Shown piece by piece: positions 2,579 to 48,205 of a stretch of 64,000 nt of DNA. The stretch covers positions 419,186-483,185 of the forward strand of contig NC_014363.1 of the NCBI RefSeq assembly GCF_000143845.1, written 5' to 3'. The DNA comes from Olsenella uli DSM 7084 (GTDB taxonomy: Bacteria > Actinomycetota > Coriobacteriia > Coriobacteriales > Atopobiaceae). A program made the translations under genes and the position numbers. The notes beneath the pieces are model-generated. The model was not told the origin of the DNA. It searched no databases and saw only the letters and a list, made by a program, of their open reading frames with translations. Every line of letters starts with the position of its first letter. The stretch's first letter is position 1.

Positions 2579-2791
2579 GTGCACCATCCCTCTGTCACTT
2601 GTCCCCTGGTTGCGGCATCCGGTTGCACTCGGGCCGCTCAGGTCCAAGCATAGCGCTTGTCGGCATGCCCCTGGGCGGCCCAGACGGCGAGCGTGGCTCG
2701 GAAGCCGCAACGGCTCGGAAGTGGCAATGGCTCGAAAGCGGTAAGCTATCTGTGATGCTCCTTCAGCGGATGCCGTTCTCAGGGGGATGCC

Positions 2792-3043
2792 ATGGAAGGC
2801 ACCACGAAGTCCAATTCCGAGGTGGCCGCCCGTCACGCGCAGGAGCTCTCCTCACAGTTCTCCCCTGGTGTCGTGGAGGTTGTCGGCAATGACAACACTC
2901 TCGCCGAGAGTGGCGTGCACTCAAGTGCCGACGAGCTCGCCAGGGCGATGCGCGGTCTCGTCCAGGCCCTCGGCGCGGATGCCGATGCCATCGGGTCTGC
3001 CGCAGCGACCTTTGACGAATGGGACGAGGGCCAGACCTACTGA
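2792..3043 (+). CDS. small DUF3130/TIGR04197-like LXG partner (Lap1-like)
   Basis: An 83-residue, acidic, mostly helical protein without signal peptide or membrane segment. Its size, the pattern of small residues and the central V-x-x-N-x-T-L segment resemble the TIGR04197/DUF3130 family, WXG100-like proteins that dock on the N-terminal domain of LXG toxins and guide them to the type VIIb secretion machine. It starts behind a good ribosome site (AGGGGG, 2778-2783) and lies 71 bp before the LXG gene, the usual place for such a partner. The family call rests on recognition by eye and on context; a profile search would settle it. Confidence 0.6.
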   Translation: MEGTTKSNSEVAARHAQELSSQFSPGVVEVVGNDNTLAESGVHSSADELARAMRGLVQALGADADAIGSAAATFDEWDEGQTY

Positions 3044-3114
3044 GGCCAAAATGCCAGGTGCCAAGGGCGGGGCGTCGATCGAGGCCAAAGCCACCGGAAC
3101 GAGGAGGTCCCCCG

Positions 3115-4545
3115 ATGATCCAAATCAGGCCGTCGGCCGTGCAGGCGCAGATCGAGGGCAAGTACGGGGTCATGAGTGCGTTGAGTGACGAGTGCGAGCG
3201 CATCGGCCGTGCGGCGCAGTCGTTCGCGGACGAGGAGGCGCTGACGGGTCCGGGGTGGGATGCGGCGAAGAGCCGCATCGCAGCGTACTCGAAGCTGACC
3301 GCTGCCATGGTGTATGCCTGTGGGATCATCGGGATCGCCGACAGGCATGTCTTCTCTGCCCTCAGCTCGCGCTTCGGGAGCACGTCGGCCGTCGACGAGG
3401 AGGAATGGCTCCAGATGCAGCAGGAGGCCCGACACATGCTCGCTCAGGCCGAGTCGATCCTGAGCTCGTCGACGAGCCGTGGCACGGGACAAGATGGCGC
3501 GCTTGGCGAGTACGCGAGCGCGATCCCCGGGTACTTGGAGAGGATCCGGCGCGCCGGCGAGGTGCTCTCGAAGATCTACTCGTACTGCGAGGAGACGAAC
3601 GGGCTCTATTCCGACGACGAGCTATCGGGCCTGTGCAACTTGGTGGCTCGTGGCACCAGGGCTCTCGCGTCGAGCGGCTTCGATGGCCAGACGTGCTCCT
3701 GGTCGGCATGGGATGACGGTTGGGTGGGTGAGCTGGACGTAGTGGTACAGGGCATTGCTGCGTGCGACCCCATGAGCGAAACGGGTGCGGTGGATACCGA
3801 CGAAGTCTCTCGCGCACTGTACATGATGCGTGCGTTCCCCGAGGGCTCTGCCCCCTACGAGAGTGCCAAGAGGATGCTGGAAGCGGCCCTTGGCAAGATA
3901 ATGGAGATGGATGAGGGGGTCAGGCGGGCCGCGCTTGCGTGTTTCGCGCAGTCCGGGCTGGTAACGGGGGCTAGGGACGAGTACGGTTACCTCAGCCCCC
4001 AGTGCAGCGACGAGTTGGGGACCATCCTGCAGGAGACGGGGACCAGCTGGGATGTCTTCCTGGCCGATGCCGGCTACGACGAGCACGAGGGCGCCGATGA
4101 CCTGGACGTTGCCGATACGGCGATAGGCACGGTCGTGTCGGGCCTGTTCGAAGCGTCCATGTGGTCTTATGGTCTTGAAGAGCTCGCCAAGGGCTTCAGT
4201 ACCATTGGTGGTGTGACGTCTGCCACCTTCCTTCTCGCTGAGACGATGCATTCCTATCAGGATGCATACGATGACGCCTTCTACCTGGACGAGCGATCCC
4301 GCAGGATACACGCTCGCTCTGAGCTTGATAACACACTTGTGACTGGGGCGGGATCGATTGTAATTTGCGGGTTTATTGGATCAGGGATCGGAGGAGCTGC
4401 AGGTGCGGCTATTGGTGCTTTTGGGGGAGCTGCCCTTTCGGTGGGAATGAGTGTGGTTGGTGCTGACAAGGAGGTTCATGGAATGTTAGACCCAATGTTT
4501 GATGACTATGCTGCCTGGCTTAATGATTCTGAGAGAGAGCTGTGA
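3115..4545 (+). CDS. LXG-domain type VIIb secretion effector with glycine-zipper C-terminus
   Basis: A 476-residue protein. Residues 1 to about 200 are helical and carry an L-T-G (43-45) followed by a tryptophan at 48, as in LXG targeting domains. Residues 410-449 are a hydrophobic, glycine- and alanine-rich stretch with repeated GxxxG spacing, followed by a short acidic tail. Pore-forming LXG toxins such as TelE of Streptococcus gallolyticus are reported to use glycine zippers, so a membrane-depolarising toxin is the best guess; no enzymatic motif was seen. ATG 3115 was chosen over the upstream frame because GAGGAGG sits just before it. The stop overlaps the next gene by one base. The last 200 bp are visibly less GC-rich than the front, which fits exchange of toxin tips. 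Confidence 0.68.
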   Translation: MIQIRPSAVQAQIEGKYGVMSALSDECERIGRAAQSFADEEALTGPGWDAAKSRIAAYSKLTAAMVYACGIIGIADRHVFSALSSRFGSTSAVDEEEWLQMQQEARHMLAQAESILSSSTSRGTGQDGALGEYASAIPGYLERIRRAGEVLSKIYSYCEETNGLYSDDELSGLCNLVARGTRALASSGFDGQTCSWSAWDDGWVGELDVVVQGIAACDPMSETGAVDTDEVSRALYMMRAFPEGSAPYESAKRMLEAALGKIMEMDEGVRRAALACFAQSGLVTGARDEYGYLSPQCSDELGTILQETGTSWDVFLADAGYDEHEGADDLDVADTAIGTVVSGLFEASMWSYGLEELAKGFSTIGGVTSATFLLAETMHSYQDAYDDAFYLDERSRRIHARSELDNTLVTGAGSIVICGFIGSGIGGAAGAAIGAFGGAALSVGMSVVGADKEVHGMLDPMFDDYAAWLNDSEREL

Positions 4546-5237
4546 TGGATGTGTCGAGCTCCGGGGGTAGGCGAATCGCCTCCACCTTCGTCGTGGACGC
4601 TGACTTCTATCGCCTCTACGCGAGACATACGATGTCCAAGCGGGTATTTGCTATCCTCCTTGCGGTGGGTGTTGCTGCTGTATGGGCGAGCTTTCTCGTT
4701 TTGCGCCTTCCACACGGGAGCCTGCGTGTGCACCTTCGCGTTATCTTCATCGTAATTTCGTTTTGGGGGTTCTGGCAGTTCTCTACCACCTCCATCGCAC
4801 TGGTTCGCTCTCATCACCTGCAGCGCGTCGAGATTCACATGGTGGGCGGCAAGTGGTGCGAGGGCGTGCTCGTGATGGCAGAGGTGACAGACTCCTCCGC
4901 ATCGGTGAGCAGGTCTGCCACCGAGTGCGGCAGTGGGGAGAGGCCTCCCAGCAAGCGCGTGCGGAAGATGACCGAGGGACGTTACCGCGACTTCCCGCTG
5001 CTTGAGGGTACGTATTCCCTCGACGAGGTGACGAGGGTTGTCTGGTCGGAAGGGTACGCCCTGCTCGTCGTTGGGGGGATGGCGAGGACGCTCCCCTCGG
5101 AGACCTATAGGGCTATGGGCATCCGTGAGGCCCCGGCGATACCCGTGGCGCTTGGGCCTCTGGGCGAGGACGGGCGGCGGCGCCTGCGCGCCCTGCTTGA
5201 CGAGCGCGGCATACCCGTCCGGCGCGTGCGTCGTTAG
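4545..5237 (+). CDS. two-TM membrane protein, candidate immunity protein
   Basis: A 230-residue protein with two closely spaced membrane segments (about residues 34-52 and 65-83) and a soluble C-terminal domain of about 140 residues that may be a PH- or YcxB-like beta fold. It begins on the last base of the LXG stop codon, so its translation is coupled to the toxin. Position and topology suggest a membrane immunity protein against a pore-forming toxin, by analogy with TipE for TelE; this is inference. I do not recognise a named family. A GTG one codon earlier (4542) could also start it. Confidence 0.55.
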   Translation: MDVSSSGGRRIASTFVVDADFYRLYARHTMSKRVFAILLAVGVAAVWASFLVLRLPHGSLRVHLRVIFIVISFWGFWQFSTTSIALVRSHHLQRVEIHMVGGKWCEGVLVMAEVTDSSASVSRSATECGSGERPPSKRVRKMTEGRYRDFPLLEGTYSLDEVTRVVWSEGYALLVVGGMARTLPSETYRAMGIREAPAIPVALGPLGEDGRRRLRALLDERGIPVRRVRR

Positions 5238-5278
5238 CCCGGGGCGCATCGCTGGCGCAGGAGAGACAGGAGGTCGTT

Positions 5279-5644
5279 ATGCAGGATGGTCACGCTAGGG
5301 GCGTTGGTGCGGATGACTGGCTCCCGCTCGGAAGCGTCGTCACGCTCAGGGGCGCCCGTCACCAGGTGATGATCTACGGACGGCGCCAGCGCGTCCAGGG
5401 TGCCGTGGGGGCGGATGCATCCGATGACGCCACGGGGGTGGCGCCTATGGATGGGCGCGAGTGGGACTACGTGGCGTGTCCGTGGCCCGAGGGCAACATG
5501 GGCCCTGGCCACACCTACCTCTTTGATGCCGAAAGCATCGATACCGTGTGGTTTCTGGGCTATCAGAACCGTGACGAGTTCAGCATGCGCAGGCGACTTG
5601 GTACTGAGCCAAGTGCGGAGGGGCGGCATGGGCTGGCAGAATAA
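5279..5644 (+). CDS. DUF4176 domain protein
   Basis: A 121-residue soluble protein. The order LPLGSVVTLRG, MIYGRR, WDYVACPWPEGNMGP and VWFLGYQN matches the DUF4176 family, which occurs almost only in type VIIb/LXG gene clusters and, as I recall, includes a reported chaperone for the LXG toxin TelA. It has a strong ribosome site (CAGGAGG) before ATG 5279 and overlaps the next gene by 17 bp. Its presence supports reading the whole 2.8-6.0 kb stretch as an LXG cassette. Confidence 0.72.
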   Translation: MQDGHARGVGADDWLPLGSVVTLRGARHQVMIYGRRQRVQGAVGADASDDATGVAPMDGREWDYVACPWPEGNMGPGHTYLFDAESIDTVWFLGYQNRDEFSMRRRLGTEPSAEGRHGLAE

Positions 5645-6026
5645 CGATGGCGAGCGCTATGCGGAGGGTGCGGAGGATGAGCGTTACGTGGCCAGGTATC
5701 GGCAGTGCTGCCTTGACATAGAGCTGCGAGAGGACGGGCTGCGCAACCGCGAACGGAGGGCCTACGAAGAGCTCGATGCCCTAGAGCTCCTGCATGCCGA
5801 GAGCCGGCGTTGGGTCGAGCGCTACCAGTCCCTCACCGAGGGCATGCCAGGCGAGGCTGCGAGCGTCGCGTGGATGTACGAGGGGCTCAGTGCGGACGAG
5901 CAGGGCCTCTGGCGCTGTCATGACAGGCTCGATGAGCAGTTTGCGAAGGAGCGCAGACGTCTTGAGGATGAGCGCGAGAGCGTCGAGCTTGGGTGGCGCA
6001 CCCATTGGAGGGGCCGTGGGGCCTAG
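5628..6026 (+). CDS. small helical/coiled-coil protein of LXG cassette (Lap2-like?)
   Basis: A 132-residue, highly charged, almost wholly helical protein rich in Arg, Glu and Leu, without membrane segments. It starts inside the end of the DUF4176 gene. LXG toxins usually have two helical partners, DUF3130 and DUF3958; by size and location this could be the second, but the sequence match is not strong enough to assert. Its stop lies inside the first copy of a 20-bp direct repeat that begins the following repeat-rich spacer. Confidence 0.5.
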   Translation: MGWQNNDGERYAEGAEDERYVARYRQCCLDIELREDGLRNRERRAYEELDALELLHAESRRWVERYQSLTEGMPGEAASVAWMYEGLSADEQGLWRCHDRLDEQFAKERRRLEDERESVELGWRTHWRGRGA

Positions 6027-6066
6027 CGGAGCCCTGAGGCCTCGGAGGCCGTGGGGCCTAGCGGAG
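6012..6066. repeat. 20-bp direct repeat pair
   Basis: GGCCGTGGGGCCTAGCGGAG occurs at 6012-6031 and again at 6047-6066, 35 bp apart. The first copy overlaps the end of the helical protein gene, the second is intergenic. It may be a small tandem duplication that shifted the gene's end. Confidence 0.8.
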
Positions 6067-6113
6067 GCCGTGATCATCGCACCGGGATCATCAACTTTCG
6101 CGCCGATGCCGCC

Positions 6114-6280
6114 AGAAGTGAGTACCTGCCCCTCGGAAGTGAGTATCTGGTACTCACTTCTGGTGATCCTGTCAATGCGTGTACCTGTGGATACTCTGAG
6201 AAACACGTGTTTGTCGAATGTCATATGTCCGCAAGGAGTACCAAAAAGTACTCACTTCTATTAGTTGAGTACTCACTTCT
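6114..6280. repeat. repeat element family A, copy 1
   Basis: Five 13-bp units near AGAAGTGAGTACC. Direct units lie at 6114 and 6135, inverted units at 6149, 6247 and 6268; neighbours of the same orientation are exactly 21 bp apart. An 85-bp core (6162-6246) lies between the inverted units. On the minus strand it shares three blocks with the other copies: CATATGA, TATCCACAGGTACA and ATTGACAGGAT. Decayed units can be followed to about 6370. See findings. Confidence 0.85.
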
Positions 6281-6555
6281 GATGAAGTGTATGCCTCTGA
6301 CAGCTGGGCATCCACTCCTAATAAACTCCTAGTAATGAACTCCTAGTCAGTAACAGTAAGTGACTTCTGGCGATTGAACCCATGTTTCGCGGGCTCGAGG
6401 CCTGCGGTCCTGCGTATCACCTGCGCGATCTGCATTGCCTCTCTCACAGCCGTCCCATCCGCTCGCCGTCCTTCGCAAGCGTTCTCAACTCCCAGGCCCT
6501 GGCGACCCCACATGGCCTGGTGGCTCTGCGGACTGGTACCTGCATAGACTGGTGA
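6281..6555. other. intergenic, decayed repeat units
   Basis: Up to about 6370 there are degenerate family A units (GAAGTGTATG at 6284, then pieces such as TAAGTGACTTCTGG). From 6371 to 6555 I see no gene, RNA or clear terminator. Confidence 0.4.
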
Positions 6556-7599
6556 TCACATGGGCTGATGGTTTGGAGTCCGCACCCAGCCGAGCAACTT
6601 AGCGCGAGCGGCTCTCACTTCGGGATCTTCGCTCTCAACCGAGGTCCTAAGACACCTCGACAGGCGTTTCATCAGGCGCATCATGTCGGCCTGGCTCCTG
6701 AAATGAAGGCTTGATGCCGTGACCACCTCGTATCCGATGGCTCTCAGTCCATCCGCCCGGTCTTTGTCTCGTTCGAGCTCCTCCTCGTTTGCGTGGAACG
6801 TCCTGCTGTCGTACTCGCAGATCACGCTCGTGCCGCAGAACAGTATGTCAGGACTCCGGTTTGTGCCACCTGTGAGCTTGGCATCCTCCCCCTGGAACAA
6901 GAGGTCCGCGTTAAGCGTAAAGTCCCCCATCCAGTAGCCGCCCTCCTTGGGTGAAAGTCCCAGGAGCATCGCGAGGTCGCTCTCGCGTGGGGACGCGCTA
7001 CCGTCCCTCAGGTGGCGAAGTACCTCGCCCACCCTCGCAGAGCCACGCAACCCTTTTGCTTCCATAAGAAATCGCTTGATTGCATCGACTGAGGTCAGCG
7101 GTTCAAGGTGTGAGGCGAAGCCGGCTTCCAGGGACGGATCGAGGCAGTAGCTGCCACAGAGCTCGTACGCCAGGGCGATGAGTTCCCAGGGGGACAGGTT
7201 GGAGGAGAGCAACGTGAGCAGAAGCTCCGGCGACGGCAGGTACACGCCGTTGGCGAGTAGGAAGAACGACCCCTCTGGGAACTCGCCTGTCAGCAGGTGA
7301 TGCCGAACTCCCTTGATGCGGTGTCGCTGGCTGCGCTTTGCCACGAGGACGTCGAGCTGCCCGAGCGGAGCCTGCGGGCCGTCCGATGGGTCCCTTGCGC
7401 ATCCGCGCAGGATGCATGTGGCCTCATCCGGTGGAGTCGTGTCGGCGAGAGGCCCCAGCCCGCAATGTGCGAGCTCGACGGCGCTCGTGGCTGGGTCTGC
7501 GACGGAGCGGCATGCGCTGCGACGAGGCACCGGGAGCCTGCCCTGTCGTACCTGCCTCCACGCCCTGAGGGCGCTCATGTGTCCGAGGTAGAGTCTCAT
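6556..7599 (-). CDS. DUF559/Vsr-like nuclease-domain protein
   Basis: A 347-residue protein of unknown role. The C-terminal third carries a restriction-nuclease-like pattern: SPDILF, then ICEYDSRTFH, then a long basic helix ERDKDRADGLRAIGYEVV, as in DUF559/Vsr-type PD-(D/E)XK folds. The N-terminal part starts MRLYLGHMSALR and has an unassigned cysteine-containing region. The open frame reaches 7680, but ATG 7599 fits the N-terminus I recall for such actinobacterial proteins. It stands alone and is flanked on both sides, in inverted orientation, by family A repeat elements, so it may be a mobile or defence-related cargo gene. No partner antitoxin or methylase is adjacent. Confidence 0.6.
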   Translation of the reverse strand: MRLYLGHMSALRAWRQVRQGRLPVPRRSACRSVADPATSAVELAHCGLGPLADTTPPDEATCILRGCARDPSDGPQAPLGQLDVLVAKRSQRHRIKGVRHHLLTGEFPEGSFFLLANGVYLPSPELLLTLLSSNLSPWELIALAYELCGSYCLDPSLEAGFASHLEPLTSVDAIKRFLMEAKGLRGSARVGEVLRHLRDGSASPRESDLAMLLGLSPKEGGYWMGDFTLNADLLFQGEDAKLTGGTNRSPDILFCGTSVICEYDSRTFHANEEELERDKDRADGLRAIGYEVVTASSLHFRSQADMMRLMKRLSRCLRTSVESEDPEVRAARAKLLGWVRTPNHQPM

Positions 7600-7756
7600 A
7601 GGCTGAACATATCCCTTTGGGGAACCGTCGCACCGGTGTTTTCGAAAAACCTCTGCAGCTGGCTGACGCATAGATTGCATGTGGCTTGCAGAGCGCGTGT
7701 CCCACAGAGCGCGTGTCCCACAGAGGCTCGCGCCTGATCAGAGTGCGCGTTCCACT

Positions 7757-8007
7757 AGAAGTGAGCACCTGCACCGTAGGAGTGCGTACCTGCGCACCGG
7801 AAGTGAGCACCCGGCTACCAGAAGTGCGTACCTTCTCGGCTTTCTCGGAGGCATATGATGTCTGGAAGGCATGCGCCGCCTGGAATATCCGCAGGTACAG
7901 GGACTGGTGAGATTGACAGGGACGAGCGCCAGATGCGCACTTCTGTCAGCTAGGTACGCACTTCCGGTGCGCAGGTACGCACTTCTGTCGGCCGGGCACT
8001 CACTTCC
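7757..8007. repeat. repeat element family A, copy 2 (most regular)
   Basis: Four direct units at 7757, 7778, 7799 and 7820, and four inverted units at 7932, 7953, 7974 and 7995, each step exactly 21 bp. Units are variants of (A/G)GAAGTG(A/C)G(T/C)ACC, with one AGGAGTGCGTACC. The 99-bp core between them has GGCTTTC, CATATGA, TATCCGCAGGTACA and ATTGACAGG. The arrangement is symmetrical, and no gene lies between 7600 and 8207. Confidence 0.9.
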
Positions 8008-8207
8008 TGCTGCCTTGGGGCGATCGATGCCCCTTGGCGCGACTGATGGTCTTGCCGCAATTAACGGCTCGGGGCGAGACGGGTGCTCTGGGACGACTGA
8101 CGACCCTGATGCAAAGACCGTGTCCAGCATAGGGCTACGGCGTTGTCAGCTGCAAACCTGCATTGTGGTGTCGCTATCCGCGGCATCGCAAGTTGCTACA
8201 TCACCAG

Positions 8208-8720
8208 CTACAGCCTGGTGACGGTCTCCTCGAGTGCCTTACGATTGCCGTGGTTGGCGAGCGGCTTCGTCCCTTCGGCGGGATAACCCAGGTCAAGCGC
8301 CATGAGGATGATCTCCCCCTTGGGAAGGGCGAGGGTAGCCGCCAAGGCGTCGGGGTCGAAGAAGTTAACCCAGCAGGAGTCAACACCGAGGCTCTTGGCC
8401 GCGAGCATCATGTGCGTTGCGACGATGGCGGCATCCTCGACGCCCGAGTCGTGTGCGTTACCGGGGTACGTGAAGACATTCTCGCTGTCAAAGGCGACGA
8501 GAAGAACGGTGCTTGCGCCGTAGCGGCAGGGCGATGCTCCATCGAACTTTGCCAGGGCGTCGGCCGACTCAAGTATGTAGACGTGCTGTTCCTGCAGGTT
8601 CTTGGCGGTCGGCGCCAGCCGTCCGGCCTCGAGGATCTGCTGCAGGAGAGACTCGTCCACCTTGCGGCCGTCGAACTTCTTGCACGAGTAGCGCTCTCTT
8701 GCGAGTTGCATGAAATCCAT
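8208..8720 (-). CDS. nitroreductase family protein
   Basis: A 170-residue FMN-dependent oxidoreductase of the nitroreductase superfamily, usually a homodimer reducing nitroaromatics or quinones with NAD(P)H. The N-terminal RERYSCKKFDGRKV and EAGRLAPTAKNLQ segments form the FMN phosphate site; GVEDAAIVATHMMLAAKSLGV is the dimer helix, and the C-terminal LGYPAEGTKP is typical. ATG 8720 was chosen because the family begins just before the RYSxKKF motif and GGGAGAG lies upstream; the open frame before it has no resemblance. The true substrate is unknown. Confidence 0.88.
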   Translation of the reverse strand: MDFMQLARERYSCKKFDGRKVDESLLQQILEAGRLAPTAKNLQEQHVYILESADALAKFDGASPCRYGASTVLLVAFDSENVFTYPGNAHDSGVEDAAIVATHMMLAAKSLGVDSCWVNFFDPDALAATLALPKGEIILMALDLGYPAEGTKPLANHGNRKALEETVTRL

Positions 8721-8772
8721 GACCGCTCTCCCGTCTTCTCGACTGGGCCCCTTGCTGCTTGGTGTGCCCATT

Positions 8773-8937
8773 CTAGCAGTCTGGAAGATGGTCAGCGACG
8801 GCCTCCTGGAGCCACTGGAGCCAGACCTCCATGTCCTCGTCGGTCGTGACGGAGAGCGGCATGATGGCACGGTCGCGGTTGCGCAAGCGCACGCTCTTCT
8901 CGTGCTCCGCCAGGTTCGAGTCGAAGTGGGGCGTCAT
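8773..8937 (-). CDS. small acidic protein, 54 residues
   Basis: An ORF of 54 residues with an AAGG site before ATG 8937, rich in Asp/Glu and ending in a tryptophan-containing helix (MEVWLQWLQEAV). It ends 52 bp before the nitroreductase start and could share its transcript. I do not recognise it; it could also be the tail of a degraded gene. Confidence 0.45.
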   Translation of the reverse strand: MTPHFDSNLAEHEKSVRLRNRDRAIMPLSVTTDEDMEVWLQWLQEAVADHLPDC

Positions 8938-9109
8938 ACCTGCCTTGCTCGCGGGGCGAGGTCCGATGCCCCGAGCATGAGGGGATTGTGGCATCATGGT
9001 CCCATGAGGCATGCGGCGCGACGCCGGCGCGATGGCCACGACATTCGACATCAGTGCTGGTGCGGCGCGCCGGTGGGGCGCGCTGCCATGAGCGGCAAGG
9101 AGGCACGGT

Positions 9110-13866: not shown

Positions 13867-15969
13867 ATGAACAAGAGGACGGTTCACATCGTTCAGAAGC
13901 TCTCTCGCACATCAAGCCCATGCAGCTTGGCAAGCCTTGCGAGGCACTTCGAGGTCTCGGAGCGCACGATTCGCAACGACATAAAGGCCCTCAACCGGTT
14001 CCTCGACAAGCAGTCCCTGGGCCAGATCAGCTTTGGCCCCAAGGGCGTGATCGTGCTTCCCGATGGCTTCGCGCAGGTCGAGGGCCTTCTGCCGGTCGAG
14101 GATACGTTTGCCTACAAGATGTCGAGCGAAGAGCGCAAGGACCTCGGTGCGGCGGTCCTCATAAACGCGACGGACTACATGACGCTAGGAGAGATCGCCG
14201 AGCTGTTCTCGGTCAGTCGAGCGACCATCCTCAACGACCTCGACGGCATAAAGGGGCGAATAACCGAGAGCGGGCTGGAGGTCGTGTCAAAGCCCAGCCG
14301 AGGCATCCTCGTCAGGGGGCGCGAGAGCGCCAAGCGCACGTTCTTACGCGACTTCATCACCCGAAAGGTGCCTATAGTCGACCAGTGGCTCGCGCTTCCC
14401 GAGAACGCCTCCATGCGGCTTGATGGCGTGACGGTCAAGAAGATCATGAACGAGCAGTGCCATGCCCACGGCATCACGATGATGGACGGACCCTTTCGGT
14501 TGGCAACCAATCACCTGTGCATCTGCGTCATGCGCAACCGTAGGGGCGCACGCCTCGAGGAGCTGGGGGGCCGTTACCATGATTGCGCCCAGGAGGACGT
14601 CGGTGGTTTCGAGCGTGAGGTCGTGGGGCTTGTAAGCCAGTACTGCCTGGTCGACATGGGTACGGACGAGGCGCTGTTCTTTGCGGCGCTGGGGCAGTCC
14701 CTTCGCTTTCAGGGAGGCACCCAGTTCAGCATCGATGACATGCAGGTCCAAAAGCTCTCCCGCATGTTCATCCGTGACATGTCGGGCGAGATCGGCGTCG
14801 ACCTTAATGGTGACTACGACCTGTTCGAGTACCTCTCCAACCATCTCGAGTCGATGTTCACGACCGAGCCGTCCCACTTTCCCGAGACGCCGGCCCTCAT
14901 GGAGGTCGTCAACGACCAGCCCGAGGTACTCGAGGCCGTCGAGAGGAACGTCGGACAGCTCGAGAGGTATGCTGGTCGCGAGATCACGCCAGTCGAGGTC
15001 ACGTACATCGCGCTCCACATCTGCGCCGCCCTCGAGAGGCGTAAGAACAGGGGGGTGCGCCCTCGCGTCGTCGTCGTATGTGACGGTGGGATCGGAACGT
15101 CGCAGCTGCTTGCCGAGGAGCTGCGCGGCCACTTCGAGATCAAGGTCGTCAAGGTCATGCCGGCCCATGACGTTCCCTATATCGAGGCGTACCATGCCGA
15201 CCTCGTCATCTCGACGGTGCCTCTCGACAGCTGCCCCGTCGATCACATCGTGATCAAGCTGCCACTCAAGGACAGCGAGTACAGCCTCATCCACGAGAAG
15301 CTGGCCTCCATCGAGTCAAGCATCCGCATGTCGGCCTCCGATCTTGACGATCTCAGCGCGCAGGGCCTGCTGGACAGGATCGAGCCCGTCATAGCCGATC
15401 GCGTGCCGAAGGACGCCGACCTCCTGAACGCGATTCGCATCGAGGTCAGGCGATACTTCCGTGAGGCCCAGCACCTGGAGGACCAGCTCGTCTCCCCTTA
15501 TCTGCATCAGCTGCTCCCTCCAAGCCACATCAGCCTCGACGTCGATTGCGCTGATTGGCGAGACGCCATCCGAAAGTCGGCACAGCCCCTGCTGGACATG
15601 GGTTACATAGAGGAGCGCTACGTCGAGTCGATGGTGCATGGGGTGGAGAAGCATGGCCCCTACATCGTCTTGGCGCCCGGCTTTGCCATCCCCCACTCGT
15701 CTCCCGAGAACGGGACGATAAAGATGGGCATGAGCCTCATACGGCTCAGGAGGCCCGTCCGCTTTGGCAGTGACGAGAATGACCCCATAGAGTTCGTGTG
15801 CACGCTCAGCGCGGTGGACCGCAAGACCCATCTGAAGGCGTTTGCCGATCTTCTTGACATGATTGTGATGCCGAGGAACTCGTTTTTGGATGACATGCGC
15901 AAGGCCGCCGATCCCCTTGAGGCCGCGAGCCTGATAGAACGCTATGAGTATCTCGTCATACAGAGGTAG
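13867..15969 (+). CDS. PRD-domain transcription activator (BglG/MtlR type) with EIIB and EIIA domains
   Basis: A 700-residue regulator. Order of domains: N-terminal helix-turn-helix (VSERTIRNDI), a second HTH (LFSVSRATILNDL), PRD1 around 180-290, PRD2 around 300-395 (ITPVEVTYIALHI), a GatB-like EIIB domain with Cys 405 (VVVCDGGIGTS) and a fructose/mannitol-type EIIA domain with His 610 (FAIPHSSPENG). Such proteins activate PTS operons when phosphorylation reports that substrate is being transported. It lies directly upstream of the galactitol-family PTS and is its probable activator. The ATG at 13867 was preferred over 13822 because homologues start just before the HTH. Confidence 0.9.
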   Translation: MNKRTVHIVQKLSRTSSPCSLASLARHFEVSERTIRNDIKALNRFLDKQSLGQISFGPKGVIVLPDGFAQVEGLLPVEDTFAYKMSSEERKDLGAAVLINATDYMTLGEIAELFSVSRATILNDLDGIKGRITESGLEVVSKPSRGILVRGRESAKRTFLRDFITRKVPIVDQWLALPENASMRLDGVTVKKIMNEQCHAHGITMMDGPFRLATNHLCICVMRNRRGARLEELGGRYHDCAQEDVGGFEREVVGLVSQYCLVDMGTDEALFFAALGQSLRFQGGTQFSIDDMQVQKLSRMFIRDMSGEIGVDLNGDYDLFEYLSNHLESMFTTEPSHFPETPALMEVVNDQPEVLEAVERNVGQLERYAGREITPVEVTYIALHICAALERRKNRGVRPRVVVVCDGGIGTSQLLAEELRGHFEIKVVKVMPAHDVPYIEAYHADLVISTVPLDSCPVDHIVIKLPLKDSEYSLIHEKLASIESSIRMSASDLDDLSAQGLLDRIEPVIADRVPKDADLLNAIRIEVRRYFREAQHLEDQLVSPYLHQLLPPSHISLDVDCADWRDAIRKSAQPLLDMGYIEERYVESMVHGVEKHGPYIVLAPGFAIPHSSPENGTIKMGMSLIRLRRPVRFGSDENDPIEFVCTLSAVDRKTHLKAFADLLDMIVMPRNSFLDDMRKAADPLEAASLIERYEYLVIQR

Positions 15970-23522: not shown

Positions 23523-23546
23523 CAATGCGCGCGCGACGAGGATCGC

Positions 23547-23660
23547 GTGCACGCGTTTCGAAATCGTGTGCACGCCGGGCCCGGCCGATCGGATCTGTGT
23601 GCACGCCGGGCCCGTTCGATCGGGTCTGTGCGCACGCCGGGCCCGGCCGACGGCGGGCCG
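23547..23660. repeat. repeat element family B, copy 1
   Basis: A 27-bp near-palindrome (23547-23573) built as GTGCACGCG-TTTCGAAAT-CGTGTGCAC, running into three tandem 31-bp units that start at 23568, 23599 and 23630. Each unit begins (G)(T/C)GCACGCCGGGCCCG. It follows the last gene of the Dha kinase operon. Confidence 0.88.
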
Positions 23661-29086: not shown

Positions 29087-29228
29087 CGTCTGCGCACGAA
29101 CATGCCGTCTGCTGGTGATTGGAAGGGACTCCCGCCCTCCGGGACCCTGGTCGTGATCGGTGCGGCGCGCGACGTCTTGGGGGTTGCCCTACAGATGCAT
29201 GCTTTTGCAAACGCATGTTTTGTTGCGC

Positions 29229-29372
29229 GTGCACGCGTTTTGAAATCGTGTGCACGCAGGCGAGAAAAGCCCAGTTCGGAGACGGGCCCGTGCACGCGTT
29301 TCGAAATCGTGTGCACGCCGGGCCCGTTCGATCGGGTCTGTGCGCACGCCGGGCCCAGCCGACGACGGGCCG
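29229..29372. repeat. repeat element family B, copy 2
   Basis: Two 27-bp palindromes (29229-29255 and 29290-29316), starts 61 bp apart, followed by the 31-bp tandem tail (units at 29311 and 29342). It fills the gap between the convergent FGGY kinase and histidine phosphatase genes, which holds no other feature. Confidence 0.88.
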
Positions 29373-40005: not shown

Positions 40006-40255
40006 GGAAGTGAGTACCTGGTCGCCGGAAGTGAGTACTTTTTGGGCTTTCCGTGGGGCCTCAGCGCCCGACTGGCGCGTCTCTCGATATATCCGCAGTT
40101 ACACTCGTTGCCAGGATTATCGGAAGTGAGCACTGGTGCTCACTTCCGATACTCGGGTACTCACTTCTGGGAGCGGGGAGCGTGGCGTGCAGTTCGGCCT
40201 TGGCAGAATGCTCATTCCCGATGGCCGGGCTTCCGATACTCGGGCACTCACTTCC
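40006..40255. repeat. repeat element family A, copy 3
   Basis: Direct units at 40006 and 40027, an 82-bp core, then a direct unit at 40122 and inverted ones at 40135, 40156 and 40243, all on or close to the 21-bp grid, with decayed units between 40177 and 40235. The core has GGGCTTTC, TATCCGCAGTTACA and TTGCCAGGAT, matching the other copies. Confidence 0.88.
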
Positions 40256-47497: not shown

Positions 47498-48205
47498 GCA
47501 GCGCTCAATCCGCCCCGAGCGCATAGCATCTCGGCGTTTTCTGCGACCCCGGGCTTCGCTGCTCTTTGCGTGGCCGGGCTGTGGCATGGCCGTGAGAGCG
47601 CGGAGGTTGGCGATTGGCAGCTTGCGGATTGCAGCTTGCGGATTGCGGCGAATGTACGGCGCATTACGGCGTGGTGTGGCTGGTAGGTTTTGGCCGGTAC
47701 CCCCGTGCACACGTTTCGAAAACGCATGCACGGTCCCGGCGTTTGTCCAGCTCGCAAGATGACCCGTGCACACGTTTTGAAATCGCGTGCACGGGGCGCC
47801 GGCCCTTCCTGCAGTGAGTGGGCGGCTGGAGAGCTTCTGTGAAAGCGCGCTTGCGGAGGCTCACAAAAGTCGCTCAGCTGTCCAGCCGAGCGAGCTGGCC
47901 GAAAAGCGCTTCGTAGCGCGACGCCTTGGTCTCCCCGATCCTCTTTTCGGGAGACGCGTACTTTCCAATATCGTGATCTGCCTTGTACGGCAAAAACGGT
48001 ACGTGCCTATGCCATATTTTATTGAGATGGCGCAGAAGGAGGTGCAGTTGTCGTGGTGAGGCTACGGCGTTGAGAAGACTGATCCCGCGCGATTCCACGA
48101 TTTAAAGCGCCCCCTGCCGCGCGAGGCAAAAGGTTACGAGGCAAAGGGTTACTATGGACTTACCGCGCCCGGCTTCCGGACACCCAGGCGACAGGAGGGT
48201 CGGCC
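47498..48205. other. intergenic region with repeats
   Basis: It holds a 14-bp tandem duplication, AGCTTGCGGATTGC (47620-47648), a family B element (47705-47792), and the direct repeat CGAGGCAAA-GGTTAC near 48120 and 48137. Small open frames at 47787-48059 (plus) and 47874-48098 (minus) have no recognisable product. Confidence 0.5.
47705..47792. repeat. repeat element family B, copy 3
   Basis: Two 27-bp palindromes at 47705-47731 and 47766-47792, starts 61 bp apart as in copy 2, each GTGCACACGTTTYGAAA followed by the reverse half. The 31-bp tandem tail is absent. It follows the GntR gene. Confidence 0.88.

Follow-up and report, generated by a model that had tools for sequence, protein, structure and literature searches.

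The DNA studied here, hereafter the window, is a 64-kb stretch that corresponds to positions 419186-483185 of the single 2,051,896-bp contig of Olsenella uli DSM 7084. It harbours, on the minus strand at 6556-7599, a gene for a DUF559/Vsr-like, PD-(D/E)XK-type nuclease of 347 aa, which is accompanied on either side by a copy of a hairpin-forming repeat that we refer to as family A. Copy 1 (6114-6279, plus strand) comprises two forward GAAGTGAGTACC-type units, followed by inverted units around a core of ~97 nt with TGTACCTGTGGATA, and copy 2 (7757-8007, core on the minus strand) possesses four inverted units per side. In both copies, units of the GAAGTGMGTACC type follow each other at 21 nt and are turned against each other around the core; with up to two mismatches they are found at 6115 and 6136 (plus) and 6149, 6247 and 6268 (minus) in copy 1, and at 7758, 7779, 7800 and 7821 (plus) and 7932, 7953, 7974 and 7995 (minus) in copy 2. 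Altogether, the window contains 23 matches to the unit against 7.3 expected, a level reached in none of 100 shuffles. A model search placed the ~130-nt cores in opposite orientation at 6134-6261 (plus, 86.5 bits) and 7816-7945 (minus, 76.1 bits), both copies being among the 21 used in model building. The hairpin at 6134-6166 in copy 1 folds at -9.4 kcal/mol (z -6.6), and the RNA fold of copy 2 has a z of -10.2, its arms pairing across spacers too. The nuclease gene has an open frame and, with the start at 7599, begins with MRLYLGHMSALRAW; this start was chosen over the longer ORF from 7680 because it fits the N-terminus of the family better. Units, core scores and open frame thus bear out the original prediction of a nuclease gene lying between two family A copies with opposed cores. 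A third copy in the window (40007-40254, minus strand), where an additional partial copy occurs on the opposite strand, has no adjoining nuclease gene.

The O. uli genome contains six relatives of the window nuclease, and homologues are present in 46 of the 60 genomes searched, O. uli included. Among 27 homologues, Pfam DUF559 was matched by six and MTES_1575 REase by seven (E<=0.01); for the window protein, no profile match passed the cut-offs (MTES_1575, E 0.033). The DUF559/Vsr-like label given to it beforehand holds for the family through the homologues. Conservation over 27 sequences is found in the C-terminal domain, where D251 and H269 occur in every sequence and E262 and D278 in at least 90%; we take these four residues to be the Vsr-type catalytic positions. 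The homologue profile weakly matches two PDB entries, 3hrl (endonuclease-like) and 3r3p (mobile intron protein), at E 0.006-0.01, both presumably Vsr-like nucleases. None of the 27 homologues matched NCBIfam. PADLOC returned three weak families for them, namely AbiEi (one member), PDC-S69 (one) and PDC-S37 (two); as to membership in the AbiE type IV toxin-antitoxin systems, there was no PADLOC match for the window protein, and the AbiEi match in one of the 27 homologues was weak (E 7e-4). No relatives of the nuclease protein were found in viral contigs, and a single-sequence structure prediction (pLDDT 35) was set aside.

A search of the O. uli genome for family A yielded 22 clusters of units. 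An alignment over ~130 nt is possible for 21 of these, which represent full copies and form the basis of the sequence-only model (R1); the degenerate cluster at 770902 was left out of it. Each element has a hairpin formed by two inverted units and an oriented core of ~97 nt, in which TGTACCTGCGGATA, in some cases as a variant, recurs in most copies. Another unit follows AAAAAGTAC, and further units, differing in number from copy to copy, lie on either side; within the arrays the spacing of units is mostly 19-22 nt. In the alignment of the hairpin 88.4% of cells are paired, as against 30-51% in a slid control, which was preferred because kinship of the sequences can inflate a shuffle control, and covariation in the form of double-sided changes is seen in 6 of 13 pairs. 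At two of four positions, the unit variants of one copy resemble each other somewhat more than those of different copies (10/2000 and 21/2000 shuffles). Known RNA families were discarded as an explanation, the two copies flanking the nuclease gene having no Rfam match at E<=5. A coding function of the core was likewise rejected: one frame seems open, but column shuffles are as stop-poor, and there is no 3-base periodicity.

Family A copies lie mostly between ordinary genes, such as groEL, enolase, rpiB, yebC, murJ and others, and none of 30 scanned proteins that flank the other copies matched DUF559 or MTES_1575; the check whether other copies stand beside similar genes thus had a negative outcome. 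A tie between the nuclease paralogues and family A itself was also rejected, as the six other O. uli nuclease genes (six of the seven in the genome, all at more than 5 kb) are 5.8-60 kb away from the nearest copy. The search for family A in 59 further genomes from this family and order gave marginal single matches in two and no convincing element; single pattern hits in 13 genome_contigs and four viral contigs (best E 0.006 at 13.6 bits) are read as chance. The original prediction had regarded a gene without repeats in relatives as evidence against a connection. For family A this is literally what the 59 genomes contain, but such a comparison misses the different repeats that accompany the same gene family in these relatives.

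The surroundings of the bracketed gene differ from those in related genomes over an interval (2747-9109) that extends from fumC to a B3/4-domain gene and includes a T7SS-type cluster, the bracketed nuclease gene and a nitroreductase. In four relatives (G020, G029, G024 and G025) fumC lies beside the B3/4 gene, with the two matches ~434 bp apart in G029 and without the O. uli interval genes at this site in G020, G024 and G025, while O. uli has ~6 kb of extra genes there. What varies among relatives is therefore not the block of 6.1-8.0 kb proposed earlier for comparison: the T7SS-type cluster and the nitroreductase lie outside copies 1 and 2, and since the variable interval exceeds the bracket, the block is not a repeat-delimited unit in this comparison. 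As a side observation, the region 3019-6026 encodes a DUF4176 protein and a protein of 508 aa, has a GC3 below that of its neighbours and looks like a T7SS substrate cluster; the search for close relatives of the 508-aa protein yielded just G006 and G036, both from a single genus (47% identity).

Within O. uli alone the bracket could be a product of chance. When 21 elements are placed at random, a pair equally close is obtained in 29% of trials, and the probability of a pair both close and inverted is 0.157; the significance of the arrangement comes from relatives in other Coriobacteriia, whose homologues very frequently stand between repeats. When the 1.1 kb on the two sides of the gene were compared at 34 nuclease loci, a shared repeat of at least 38 bits appeared at 15 of them, and the maximum in 80 cross-locus flank pairs was 30.2 bits. 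Inspection of the flanks showed palindromes, in pairs, before and after the gene, their sequence differing from locus to locus. In 40 further regions, the count was 17 of 42 nuclease genes, including four re-fetched loci (L181, L182, L183 and L203), versus 1 of the 122 controls (p=7e-11). In a comparison with a larger control set, a flank-to-flank repeat of at least 38 bits was present at 16 of 42 nuclease genes versus 0 of 338 other genes. Genes near a nuclease gene are omitted from both control sets; in the larger one, identical genes were counted once and the genes of L159 beyond position 15000, an assembly duplication, were left out. Four high controls in an earlier run had come from this duplication (two), from the nuclease gene itself and from an ORF over it. 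Control genes were called mechanically (ORF length, GC3), and L083 and L094 stand outside the flank tests.

Because nuclease genes have longer intergenic gaps than controls (median of the smaller gap 162 bp vs 12.5 bp), controls were also matched by gap. Where both gaps are at least 100 bp, 13 of 31 nuclease genes and none of 62 controls reach 38 bits, and by 9-mer count the numbers are 17 of 31 and 0 of 62. In a set of 72 unique loci, from which the re-fetches L181, L182, L183 and L203 and nuclease ORFs below 250 aa had been dropped, 27 have a flank-to-flank repeat; at a threshold of at least 34 bits it is found at 31 loci and absent from 41. The best flank matches at these 31 loci are inverted in 14 cases and direct in 17; their median distance from the gene is 176 bp on the start side and 57 bp on the stop side. 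The window locus yields only 28.2 bits because copies 1 and 2 have diverged; it fails the bit test but passes the 9-mer test (score 4), so that the bit test undercounts diverged cases. By the 9-mer test, four of the seven O. uli nuclease loci are without such a repeat. The proposal that the gene may need the repeats as a target or boundary is supported by this association, which applies to the family as a whole.

Some loci deserve separate mention. A third O. uli nuclease paralogue (L012, genome 1497132-1500785) has palindromes of its own, of the GGCGCTGTGGC type, on both sides. At L080 (G005), arrays of 31-nt direct repeats (GACTTGTGCGG type) are found on both sides of the nuclease homologue, with at least 14 copies upstream. 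Long direct repeats flank the homologues at L189 (272 bp, 95.6%), L084 (221 bp, 95%) and L192 (119 bp, 100%), which may reflect recent duplication or mark the boundaries of a unit.

The repeats are specific to their loci: among 116 pairs of nuclease loci from the same genome, a common flank repeat was found in one, an adjacent pair with overlapping flanks. All five families searched, each in its own genome, are dispersed genome-wide. Besides family A, these are the family of the O. uli locus L014 (16 matches) and those of G021 (21), G003 (38) and G036 (6), counts in which several matches represent paired arms at a single site. When aligned, copies of each of the latter four form paired palindromes over roughly 95-105 nt. 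Dispersed copies are mostly 70-83% alike, and recent movement is therefore not evident. In the fetched regions, which cover a few per cent of each genome, extra copies in the same genome were seen for 5 of 25 strong families, and there were four hits in all for the 25 in other genomes. Cross-genome flank matches had been considered as shared repeats, and were dismissed as mainly neighbouring genes. A TACCTGC/GCAGGTA motif occurs mid-repeat in several unrelated families (family A, G036, L079, L093 and L178); as a core common to all families it was rejected, its enrichment not being established (20 of 72 nuclease loci vs 14 of 72 for the reversed motif).

The L014 family is a second repeat family of O. 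uli and flanks the nuclease paralogue at genome positions 1327444-1328010. One of its dispersed copies lies in the window (29225-29318, plus strand; genome 448410-448503; 83% identity), and copies or fragments also occur in the window at 23544-23575 and 47758-47793. At genome positions 872698-873015 (L055), a family A copy adjoins an L014-family copy in one intergenic region. Judging from shared neighbours, homologues of different genera occupy the same place in two pairs, L014/L179 and L082/L086. L014 and its counterpart L179 (in G024) have the downstream neighbour in common, so that the nuclease gene seems to stay in the same place, and their repeats look different.

The reading that we favour, with a probability of roughly 0.6, is a two-part system in which a DUF559/Vsr-like nuclease gene is combined with cognate, dispersed, hairpin-forming intergenic repeats that are likely mobilised in trans. 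It builds on several established parts, namely the bracket, the dispersal, the locus specificity, the hairpin potential with its covariation and the conserved nuclease-like residues, and on sequence grounds the arrangement in O. uli and its relatives suggests a hitherto undescribed partnership between an enzyme family and a small repeat. The pairing itself is seen as an association, from which we infer binding or cleavage of the repeats by the nuclease, and movement of the repeats. In analogy to REP/RAYT systems, each nuclease would recognise its own repeat type and would nick or cut at the cognate repeat. The repeats would then be copied or moved in trans while the nuclease gene stays put; the nuclease would in this way promote the spread or upkeep of its repeat, two copies of which would bracket the gene with the rest being dispersed.

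The main rival is that the repeats are cognate to the nuclease but immobile, serving as operators or structural sites for the enzyme or its N-terminal domain, for example in autoregulation, immunity or a chromosomal role. We regard this as unlikely, although it accounts for the same association data; the mostly regular spacing of family A units is moreover what is expected of protein-binding arrays, and the weak AbiEi match of a single homologue points in the same direction. Dispersal to many matched sites, in family A by housekeeping genes, would nevertheless need a spreading mechanism. Less probable still, and rather doubtful, is a composite or homing-like unit in which both copies and the gene move as a whole, an idea already contained in the original prediction. 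The long near-identical direct repeats at L189, L084 and L192 would suit it, but the 21 family A elements give no signal of target-site duplication (matches between an element's own flanks average 4.33 nt, vs 4.44 for cross pairs, in a test weakened by fuzzy element ends), the block covers only part of the lineage-specific interval, and homologues of different genera are found in the same place, at L014/L179 with repeats that look different. A mere coincidence, whereby nuclease genes reside where intergenic DNA is long and rich in repeats and the bracket has no meaning, would agree with the p of about 0.16 in O. uli alone and with the wider gaps of nuclease genes, yet it is very improbable and already contradicted by locus-specific repeats and by a contrast that persists with gap-matched controls.

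The two-part system favoured here invites comparison with REP/RAYT. In the sections of PMC3116915 and PMC3733652 that deal with these systems, palindromic repeats lie on either side of a single enzyme gene, repeats of this type are also dispersed intergenically, often as inverted doublets, and each enzyme has its own repeat class. All three features recur here: the gene is flanked on both sides (by copies 1 and 2 in the window, and by the family-level enrichment), the same repeats are dispersed, and each enzyme has a repeat class of its own. The enzymes differ, however, RAYT being a Y1 (IS200/IS605-type) transposase and the protein described here a DUF559/Vsr-like nuclease. No match to the Y1 transposase profile (PF01797) was obtained in the O. 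uli genome, to which this search was confined, and mobilisation by such an enzyme was accordingly discarded. RAYT-associated REPs also have a GTAG tag; none was noticed in the family A consensus. Since the organisation is that of REP/RAYT but the defining enzyme is not, the system is better regarded as a variant than as a member of REP/RAYT.

Repeats of the BOX, ERIC and MITE types are modular, hairpin-forming, intergenic and limited to one lineage, a character that they have in common with the repeats described here; to our knowledge, no pairing of such repeats with a nuclease of this fold is known. With the DUF559, MTES_1575 and Vsr-type nucleases, the proteins have in common a C-terminal domain with conserved D, E, H and D. 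We found no description of DUF559 nucleases as partners of palindromic repeats in the open-access literature, and such a pairing is not described in that on Olsenella and Coriobacteria palindromes and on REP and very short patch repair, nor in the portion covered of that on REPIN in Actinobacteria. If the favoured reading is true, a nuclease family that spans a class of gut and oral bacteria lies between its own dispersed repeats, a function would be at hand for a family that NCBIfam does not match, and the origin of intergenic repeats could be put to the test with a single purified enzyme and the repeat belonging to it. More tentatively, and with somewhat less conviction, systems of a selfish or domesticated kind may be widespread in Coriobacteriia; their dispersed palindromes would be recognised and spread by a Vsr/DUF559-type nuclease in place of an HUH transposase, enzyme and repeat would co-diversify, and the REP-RAYT way of life would have arisen a second time, independently. 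The CGTC-tagged REPs are, in the part of PMC3733652 that treats them, short dispersed palindromes with no adjoining Y1 transposase and apparently without a dedicated transposase. They resemble the present repeats as dispersed short palindromes, and differ in that a specific nuclease family adjoins the repeats here. As some REP classes are reported, in the same part of that paper, to be without a dedicated enzyme (PMC3733652), the nuclease would, if our reading is true, be a candidate partner outside the tyrosine transposases.
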